Assembly (NCBI GenBank): GCA_028289365.1
Contig: JANQQM010000033.1
Span: 62,001-126,000 of the forward strand
DNA length: 64,000 nt
Reading direction: 5' to 3'
Source of the DNA: Salaquimonas sp.
GTDB taxonomy: Bacteria; Pseudomonadota; Alphaproteobacteria; Rhizobiales; Rhizobiaceae
Positions 28,258 to 31,698 of this stretch are shown one piece after another. Made by a program: the position numbers and the translations under genes. The notes below the pieces were generated by a model. That model saw only the letters and a program-made list of their open reading frames with translations. It had not been told where the DNA came from and searched no databases. Each line of letters opens with the position of its first letter. Position 1 is the first letter of the stretch.

Positions 28258-29400
28258 TTAGCTCCGGGTGCCCGGTTTGCCAGGCCGGAGTACCATCAAG
28301 AATAACAACAAGACGGCAATGGTCATGAATTCCATGATCATTGCCGTTCTTTGAGGTAGTTCGATCATCGCACCGGAGATAACCGGTCCGACAATGCTGC
28401 CAAGCGTATAAAGCATGGCAATGGCGGCCATTGCGGAAGGAATTGTCGATCGCTCCAGATCGCGTCCGGCCTGGATCACCGCAAGCGTGTTGAACCCTCC
28501 GGCGGCCCCGCCCATAAGAAAAAGGGCCGGCAAGAGTACCCAGATTTCATCTTGATAAAAAACTGCAAGGGCACCGGTCACAACAATGGCCAGAGCACAA
28601 AGCATTTGGGCAAATCGGTAGCCTTTGCGGTCGGAAATATAACCAAGCGGCGGCTGGAGAACAGTGCCACCAAAACCGAATGCGCTTACCAGCAATGCGC
28701 TTGTCGCCAGGTTCAGGCCAAAGCTTTCGAAGTACAGGGGAAACAGGGCAATCGCGGAGTTCTCGATGAACCCCGCCACGAATGCCGCAGCCAACGCAAC
28801 AAATATCAGGCTGTAGGGAATGCTTGTCGGTTTTTTTTCTGATGGCGGCTCTGCAGATATGGATGCCCTGGCGGCAAGCAGGGAAAACAGCAGCTGGCCG
28901 GCCACCGCAATGACAATGCAGGACCACAGCACGCCTTCGAGGCTGAAGAAGACAAAAAGCAATGGTGCGATTGCAATGCCCAGACCCATGAGGGCTTCGT
29001 GGAGCCCAATCATCCTGCCCCGGTTTTGGGTGCTGCTCAATTCGACGACGAGTGAATCACAGGATACCCAACGGATTATCAGGCCAATTCCCATGAGAAT
29101 TGCAGAAAGCAGAACAACAGGGTGAGCCGTTGAGGTTAGTAACAAAACGACTGCAGCGCCGGTAGCCAGTGATGAGGATGCGTTGGCGGCATTAAATCCG
29201 GTCTGGCGGATCAGACGTGGTACGACAGGGCCAACCAACAGTACTGCCACCCATGAAATCGCAAGGAAGATACCGATCGTGAATCCGTCCACGCCCTGAT
29301 TAGACAGTATCTGTGCAATCAGTATCGGAAATACGCCTACTTGTATTATCTGGAATAATAACGAAGCAGAAAATAAATATAGTATTATTCCACTTACCAA
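28258..29400 (-). CDS. MFS transporter
   Basis: 380 aa, 12-TM pattern, MFS-like loops (GRMIGLHEALMGLGIAIAPLL; GYISDRKGYRFAQ). TTG start. Confidence 0.8.
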   Translation of the reverse strand: MVSGIILYLFSASLLFQIIQVGVFPILIAQILSNQGVDGFTIGIFLAISWVAVLLVGPVVPRLIRQTGFNAANASSSLATGAAVVLLLTSTAHPVVLLSAILMGIGLIIRWVSCDSLVVELSSTQNRGRMIGLHEALMGLGIAIAPLLFVFFSLEGVLWSCIVIAVAGQLLFSLLAARASISAEPPSEKKPTSIPYSLIFVALAAAFVAGFIENSAIALFPLYFESFGLNLATSALLVSAFGFGGTVLQPPLGYISDRKGYRFAQMLCALAIVVTGALAVFYQDEIWVLLPALFLMGGAAGGFNTLAVIQAGRDLERSTIPSAMAAIAMLYTLGSIVGPVISGAMIELPQRTAMIMEFMTIAVLLLFLMVLRPGKPGTRS

Positions 29401-29570
29401 ATTTCGCTACCCTTACCAGGTGTACTTAAATTTTTAGCAAATATTTTAATTTTCATTATACTTAAACACGAATTATTCAAACAGAATAATTTATTCTCCT
29501 GTTATGCGGATCTAATATACGGCCAGGTTTTTCCGCAGCATATGGAACATCCAGATTGCATCTGGTCATG

Positions 29571-29621
29571 GGTACCACCTGTGTTTTATATGTATAGTAC
29601 ATAGGAAAGACAGGTGGTACC
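29571..29621. promoter_or_regulatory. Nested inverted repeat abutting the start codon of the 321-aa ORF
   Basis: Outer arms ggtaccacctgt (29571-29582) / acaggtggtacc (29610-29621), 12/12 complementary; inner arms tatgta (29589-29594) / tacata (29598-29603). Confidence 0.85.
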
Positions 29622-30587
29622 ATGATAAATCAAGAAATTTTCAAAACTTCGAAGTCCCGTTGCCCAATGCATAAGGCGCGCAATTACGTGCCAAGGCGCT
29701 GGAGTCCGAAAACCCTACGACAAAAAAGTGATGATGTTGTGCTCGCCGAAGTGCAGGAATGGATGAAAAAAACGCTTCCCTGTGTCGCCGGCAGGCGGGA
29801 ATTCAATCGTGGCAATTACATGTTGCAGGTAGCAACGAGGAAATCGGTTCCTGGCATCGTGTCAAAATTCAAACACGCGCTCGAAAACAGGGAAGCTGTC
29901 GCCTGCCTGTTCATTTTCAATGATCATCGTTTCTATCGCGGGAAATCGAATGTCGGAGACGCATTCAGATATCTGGCAGAGCAGATGTCTGAGATTACAT
30001 CTGTTTCTCCTGATGATCTCGCAAATGGTGCGGCTCTGACGACCAGCATCGAACTCAATTGTCCCGTAACAAACTTGCGTACTGTCTATGATGATTTTGA
30101 ATGCATCGCATTCTGCCCACAATCAGACGACGAGCAGGACAAACTGTATGACCCGATGATGGCGATGCCTTACCCTTGCGTAAACATGTCGTCGGATGTT
30201 TACGGATTTTCACAATTTGTACGCACGAGTGCACTCTCAAGCTGGAACTGTGAAGTATATCAACAAAAGGACATAGAGAAGATCGAAAAACTGTTTAGAG
30301 TTTGTGTCGATCGCTGGCAAAGAGTTGCCACTATGACTATTTATAACTATGAGGCAGTAACGAATACAAAAATATGCCCGGTCCTAGTAACTTCAGATGG
30401 AGACTATTGGATTGCAGGTCATAAAGACCCGGCATTTGCGGAGCAGGAAAAAGCTGCCCACAAACACGAATTGCCGTCTGTATACGGAAAGCGTATCGTT
30501 GAGGGATGGATGGAATATTTTCGCAATGGCCAAACTTATCGTGCCCACGGCATGGCGCGCGATGGATTACCTGTGGAAATGGTCTGA
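29622..30587 (+). CDS. Uncharacterised protein; N-terminal part weakly reminiscent of the YqcI/YcgG family
   Basis: 321 aa intact ORF; LPCVAGRREFNRGNYMLQVAT resembles the N-terminal block of YqcI/YcgG-type proteins by eye only. Confidence 0.35.
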   Translation: MINQEIFKTSKSRCPMHKARNYVPRRWSPKTLRQKSDDVVLAEVQEWMKKTLPCVAGRREFNRGNYMLQVATRKSVPGIVSKFKHALENREAVACLFIFNDHRFYRGKSNVGDAFRYLAEQMSEITSVSPDDLANGAALTTSIELNCPVTNLRTVYDDFECIAFCPQSDDEQDKLYDPMMAMPYPCVNMSSDVYGFSQFVRTSALSSWNCEVYQQKDIEKIEKLFRVCVDRWQRVATMTIYNYEAVTNTKICPVLVTSDGDYWIAGHKDPAFAEQEKAAHKHELPSVYGKRIVEGWMEYFRNGQTYRAHGMARDGLPVEMV

Positions 30588-30676: not shown

Positions 30677-31288
30677 ATGAGTAAGGAGAATGGAATGGGG
30701 TATACGGACTTGAAAAGCCCAAATGTTCCCAGAGATTTGTTTTTGGGAAATGTTTTGGGAGCTTTTTCGAGAGCGTTGTGTGACAAGATGGACAGGGCTG
30801 TATGCGCTGCGACCGGTCGCAACACCACTGCCTGTTATGCCATTGTACAAATTGGTTCGGAACCTGGTTCCTCGATCGAAGTCTTGCGGAGGATGCTCGG
30901 ATTAGAGCATTCTTCGGTTGTACGATTACTGGACCGGCTTGAGAGAGCGAATCTTGTAAACCGCATTCGCGGTACCGAATGTGACCAGCGGAAAGTTTGC
31001 ATCTTTCTTACAGATGATGGTGAGCGCGAGTTTACCAAAATCCTGGATGCGCGCCGTGAGGTCCTGGACCGAGCCATGGCGAGGCTCAATGATGCAGACA
31101 AGGAATTTCTCTTGTCCTTGATCCACAAATTGATGCCAGAGGTGGTCGATTGCGGAGATGACCAGCACATAGTTTGCAGGCTTTGCGACCTGGAAAAATG
31201 TCCCCAAGATCGGTGTCCGGTCAATCTGGCCTACCCCGATAACATGGACATCGTCGAGGTCCCCTTCAAACGCCGTGAGAATTTCTGA
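30677..31288 (+). CDS. MarR-family transcriptional regulator with Cys-rich C-terminal tail
   Basis: Winged-helix MarR pattern (LGLEHSSVVRLLDRLERANLVNRIRGTECDQRKVCIFLTDDGERE) followed by CGDDQHIVCRLCDLEKCPQDRCPV. Confidence 0.85.
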   Translation: MSKENGMGYTDLKSPNVPRDLFLGNVLGAFSRALCDKMDRAVCAATGRNTTACYAIVQIGSEPGSSIEVLRRMLGLEHSSVVRLLDRLERANLVNRIRGTECDQRKVCIFLTDDGEREFTKILDARREVLDRAMARLNDADKEFLLSLIHKLMPEVVDCGDDQHIVCRLCDLEKCPQDRCPVNLAYPDNMDIVEVPFKRRENF

Positions 31289-31294
31289 GCCAAA

Positions 31295-31603
31295 CTAGTT
31301 ATCGGACATCATTCGCACCTGATCGGTGTGCTTTCTGTCCAAGAGTTCCAGGCAGTTCATCACGAGATGATCGCGTTCGCAGATTTCGTAGATCATCTTT
31401 ATTGCAAACAGCCGAATTTCTTCGCTGTCATCCTCGTTGTTCACCGGAAACGAGCAAATCCTGTCGAATAGTTTGCTGACGGAGCTATCTATCAGGGCAA
31501 CTTCCGAGTCTTCCCCTCCCTCTTCGATTGTTTGACGTAGCTTCTTTCTGACAGTCTCGAACTCCCGTATCAACGCTTTCAGTTGTTTATTGTTATTTGC
31601 CAT
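31295..31603 (-). CDS. Hypothetical small helical protein
   Basis: 102 aa intact ORF, charged and helix-rich, convergent with the MarR gene. Confidence 0.55.
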   Translation of the reverse strand: MANNNKQLKALIREFETVRKKLRQTIEEGGEDSEVALIDSSVSKLFDRICSFPVNNEDDSEEIRLFAIKMIYEICERDHLVMNCLELLDRKHTDQVRMMSDN

Positions 31604-31683: not shown

Positions 31684-31698
31684 TATGTATAATACATA
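31684..31698. promoter_or_regulatory. Palindrome tatgta-taa-tacata, second copy of the inner palindrome at 29589
   Basis: tatgtataatacatag here against tatgtatagtacatag at 29589: 15 of 16 bases identical, the only difference being in the spacer. Confidence 0.6.

Follow-up and report, generated by a model that had tools for sequence, protein, structure and literature searches.

The window, the whole 64-kb stretch of Salaquimonas sp. DNA that was analysed, contains a small cluster around a plus-strand gene encoding a 321-aa protein (29622-30587). It is flanked by a divergent MFS transporter gene (28258-29400, minus strand; PF07690) and, downstream, by a gene for a MarR-family regulator (30677-31288, plus strand; PF12802 and PF01047, both above cut-off), which is followed by a 102-aa gene without any family match (31295-31603, minus strand). 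Relatives of the 29622 gene were found on genome contigs of a Hyphomicrobiales MAG, a Nitratireductor MAG, Sorangium, Tistrella and a gammaproteobacterial MAG, and in a further 22 genomes within the order. The five genome-contig loci were retrieved with a three-sequence alignment as the query; a single-protein query gave none. No relative was found in viral contigs or in any genome of the same genus. The same arrangement, with the MFS gene kept beside the 29622-gene ortholog in divergent orientation and the MarR gene downstream, was observed in seven loci among those read (L050, L051 and L078-L082), and a relative of the 102-aa gene follows the cluster, in the same place, in three of these seven (L079-L081). 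Its conservation next to the cluster in three other genomes makes it likely that this ORF is a true gene. The MarR protein ends in a Cys-rich tail (CRLCDLEKCPQDRCPVN; CRLCD...C...CPVN) that is conserved in its orthologs and points to a role in sensing metals or redox state. Many distant orthologs of the 29622 gene (L062-L077) share a different upstream motif, TATGGTTGACAAA...GTTAA, and are probably controlled by another regulator or promoter type. An inverted repeat, ACGGCAATGGTCATG/CATGATCATTGCCGT, was also observed within the 3'-terminal part of the MFS gene (28313-28347).

Sequence searches against Pfam, NCBIfam, PHROGs and PDB gave no name to the 321-aa protein. Its AlphaFold model (pLDDT 83.9) was used in a fold search, in which complexes of AglA with arginine ranked first (E 0.006, probability 0.96, with a low TM-score of ~0.3), followed by the heme domains of NO synthases. 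AglA belongs to the YqcI/YcgG heme enzymes and has Cys44 as axial ligand (PMC12866846). In the 321-aa protein, C54 was invariant in 10 diverse members and could serve as the equivalent ligand; a weak hhalign alignment was centred on this residue, with a probability of only 1.9%. The protein thus has its best fold match among the AglA/GntA/DcsA heme N-hydroxylases (PMC12866846), but differs from them in its low TM-scores and in the lack of a PF08892 match. Since PF08892 (YqcI/YcgG) matched neither this protein nor any other in its genome, it may work like the YqcI/YcgG enzymes while standing outside their family. From the modelled fold, we consider that it may be a thiolate-heme N-oxygenase resembling AglA. 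The initial annotation had described the gene as uncharacterised, which is less apt given the conserved MFS/gene/MarR cluster and the AglA-like fold match.

Immediately upstream of this gene lies a nested palindrome. Its left outer arm, GGTACCACCTGT (29571-29582), and right outer arm, ACAGGTGGTACC (29610-29621, both on the plus strand), are perfect inverted repeats of 12 bp; the inner palindrome, TATGTATAGTACATA (TATGTA-TAG-TACATA, 29589-29603), is also perfect. The right arm contains the Shine-Dalgarno (SD) sequence AGGTG (29612-29616) and stops directly before the ATG at 29622. Sequence and coordinates matched what the initial annotation had claimed for the two repeats and the start codon. 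Both pairs of arms share the same centre, 29596, and a repeat search returned the whole as one quasi-palindrome with a single pair of 24-nt arms, 88% complementary and separated by a 3-nt gap. This was the longest of the 18 inverted repeats with arms of at least 12 nt in the window. When the two 38-bp flanks were shuffled with dinucleotides preserved, a 12-bp arm at any offset appeared in 1 of 5000 shuffles. The nested palindrome is a genuine, exact feature that is not due to chance, and its exact concentricity makes a chance origin of the arms even rarer than the shuffle figure. A further 6-3-6 palindrome (CCAGAT-TGC-ATCTGG, 29551-29565), whose sequence is unlike that of the operator discussed below, is present immediately 5' of the predicted hairpin.

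The inner palindrome is not confined to this position. The 15-mer (TATGTATARTACATA) recurs as a twin site at 31684-31698 (TATGTATAATACATA), upstream of the 102-aa gene, and equivalent sites precede the relatives of that gene in L079-L081. Allowing at most one mismatch, the 15-mer was found at three places in the 4.75 Mb genome, versus none for the reversed control pattern, and two of the three lie 2.1 kb apart, around the MarR gene. The third copy, TATGTATTGTACATA (L010 1501-1515; C72:40689-40703), precedes a MucR/Ros-like regulator gene by ~190 bp and is far from any MarR gene seen in the analysis; it was left out of the operator evidence.

Comparison of the loci yielded the consensus TATGY-N5-RCATA. 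Four loci (L050, L051, L054 and L078) have a conforming site upstream of the 29622-gene ortholog; in L079-L081 and the window, such a site precedes the 102-aa gene. In L054, the site falls in the region between the 29622-gene ortholog and a divergently oriented MarR gene, flanked by TTGACA and TATATC hexamers. Four exact copies each were present in L047 and L048, which carry more distant MarRs of the same subfamily; these two loci are closely related and together amount to roughly a single case. Altogether, the MarR-bearing loci contained 15 exact sites; 59 permuted palindromes averaged 0.73 sites, with a maximum of 6 reached by a shifted version of the operator motif itself, and no exact site was found in the gene-bearing loci without MarR (L052, L053, L083 and L084). 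The palindromic site was therefore found beside the regulator gene and its neighbours, present with MarR and absent without it. The exceptions concern the position upstream of the 29622-gene ortholog itself, where L079-L081 have no consensus site and L082 has merely a site with two mismatches. Over the whole Salaquimonas genome, the degenerate consensus was not enriched (9 sites versus 7 for the reversed control).

This distribution argues strongly that the inner palindrome is an operator, presumably that of the downstream MarR protein (30677-31288), a role that we regard as very likely on its own. From the same comparison we infer that this protein binds 29589-29603 and, acting at the twin site, probably regulates the 102-aa gene as well. 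The operators of MarR, SlyA, HosA and OhrR are likewise palindromes of ~15 bp near the promoter or start of regulator-adjacent genes; the present site differs from them in its consensus, TATGY-N5-RCATA, and in its association with a Cys-tailed MarR subfamily. No MarR operator with TATGC was found in a search of the open-access literature.

The outer arms have a different history. Comparable arms were found upstream of none of 27 orthologs (the five loci and the 22 genomes); the few arms of 8-10 bp that do occur there differ in sequence and position from those of the window. In the Salaquimonas genome itself, the arms occur nowhere besides this locus, where each is the sole copy apart from its partner. 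Of the two sets of arms for which conservation had been in question, the inner one is thus kept in orthologs and the outer one is absent. Judged by this comparison, the outer arms are a lineage-specific addition and not a second operator. The initial annotation had suggested a double operator at the DNA level; the inner repeat is well supported as a putative operator, and the second operator did not hold. Perfect inverted arms would suit a second protein-binding palindrome, but they are unlike the operator consensus, have one genomic copy and are missing from all orthologs that keep the inner site, which makes such a role highly improbable. A long intergenic inverted repeat might also mark a mobile-element end, a REP-type repeat or a transcription terminator, an origin we find scarcely credible. 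The single copy in the genome speaks against the first two. As for an intrinsic terminator, the one scanner match (29567-29583) is a piece of the left arm, and the full stem lacks a T-tract on either strand.

The geometry of the arms offers a clue to their origin. The left arm is the reverse complement of the ribosome-binding site (RBS), that is, of the right arm, across the operator, and this complementarity reaches the ATG with a one-base slip. Because the outer arms are exactly concentric with the operator and the left arm copies the RBS in reverse complement, a template switch at the operator palindrome is suggested as their source. Quasi-palindromes are known template-switch hotspots (PMC7202029, PMC8794818), and template switching has been proposed elsewhere as a creator of RNA hairpins (PMC8794818). 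Because the outer arms are not conserved, they provide no evidence of selection for the hairpin. The arms could be a neutral by-product of the switch around a MarR operator acting at the DNA level alone, with transcription always starting downstream of the left arm and little hairpin RNA being made. Their absence from all orthologs and the known behaviour of quasi-palindromes fit this reading. It is harder to reconcile with the exact pairing of the left arm to the RBS and start codon, a pairing that would matter for any transcript crossing that arm, or with the several promoter-like matches that lie upstream of it; on balance, we consider it rather unlikely, though worth keeping in view.

As RNA, the segment is predicted to fold strongly. 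The computed folding energy of 29560-29640 was -36.2 kcal/mol, compared with a shuffle mean of -15.6 (z -6.9). The start codon is also paired, as the helix extends with one bulged G over GTCATG/CATGAT, so that the full predicted hairpin spans 29565-29626 on the plus strand and includes the ATG at 29622-29624. Access to the RBS was computed for a range of transcript starts. For starts from 29470 to 29570, the SD sequence was fully paired and ~20 kcal/mol were needed to free the SD-AUG region (29612-29624). The computed opening cost of this region was 6 kcal/mol for a start at 29578 and ~3 kcal/mol for starts at or after 29582. By these computed energies, translation would be all but blocked in an RNA begun upstream of the hairpin and normal in one starting at or beyond the operator. 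The proposal that the mRNA could bury its RBS was therefore upheld as far as folding energy is concerned, and hinges on the position of the transcription start. No Rfam family scored above threshold; microRNA hairpin models alone appeared, below their own thresholds.

The best promoter-like match (29434-29462) lies upstream of the hairpin and predicts a start near 29469 and a leader of 152 nt. Were this the main start, all mRNAs would carry the hairpin, and expression would depend on its being opened, for example by RNase cleavage, by an antisense RNA or a chaperone, or by temperature. The great computed stability of the hairpin in such long leaders accords with a conditional leader of this kind. 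An opening cost of ~20 kcal/mol, however, far exceeds what the usual thermosensors or ribosome unfolding overcome, and the leader is not conserved and belongs to no Rfam family above threshold; we judge a purely RNA-based control improbable. The alternative is a start inside the operator or just past it. Core promoters and the sites of their repressors normally overlap or adjoin each other. In this group, the distance from site to start codon is mostly 15-30 bp (18 in the window, 17 in L051, 30 in L050 and 15 in L078, with L054 as the exception at 91), and together these two points make such a start plausible. The operator contains the hexamer TATAGT, without a good -35 (TGGGTA), and no strong promoter was seen in the loop.

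These observations can be united in a model in which a repressor operator lies inside a start-site-dependent translation lock. The inner 15 bp would act as the DNA operator of the repressor MarR (30677-31288). The lineage would then have gained 12-bp arms around it, probably by a template switch in which the RBS strand was copied as its reverse complement, giving a hairpin with the RBS and start codon in its 3' arm and the operator in its loop. In vivo, a transcript starting upstream of the left arm would be locked for translation; one starting at or after the operator would lack the left arm and be translated. The element would thus join transcriptional repression to a lock on read-through and upstream transcripts. 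The RNA hairpin and the operator had been presented as mutually exclusive readings; because the operator sits in the loop, both can hold. A start at the best upstream promoter-like match counts against the model, since the gene would be locked permanently. We give the combined model an even chance, and place the lock, taken by itself, slightly short of even.

The closest precedent is the leader of the phage T4 lysozyme gene, e. There, long early transcripts fold, with a ~100-fold loss of expression, whereas those initiated at promoters a short way upstream of the RBS are translated (PMC3014915). As in T4, a stable helix pairing the SD and AUG was computed here for long transcripts. By computed energies, a shorter transcript without the 5' arm would free the RBS, although the loop showed no strong promoter from which it might start. 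Unlike in T4, the gene is bacterial and the loop holds a probable repressor operator instead of phage late promoters (PMC3014915). Secondary structure also hides the RBS in the 5'-UTR of the ISPpu9 transposase, but that structure is opened by an antisense sRNA and has no operator in its loop (PMC8450116).

The locus, then, presents a probable MarR operator nested within a unique RBS hairpin. The analysis assigns a likely operator to a subfamily of Cys-tailed MarR proteins guarding a conserved cluster of an MFS transporter and a possible heme N-oxygenase, and with these two assignments both the regulator and the enzyme become testable. More speculatively, and with real doubt on our part, a template switch in this lineage, with the operator palindrome as its seed, may have given the 51-bp segment a dual nature: as DNA, a MarR operator; as RNA, a hairpin silencing all transcripts not begun at the MarR-controlled promoter. 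If true, an operator could give rise directly to an RNA switch, a protein-binding palindrome could turn into an RNA translation lock by roughly a single mutational step, and the element would provide a natural expression unit proof against read-through.
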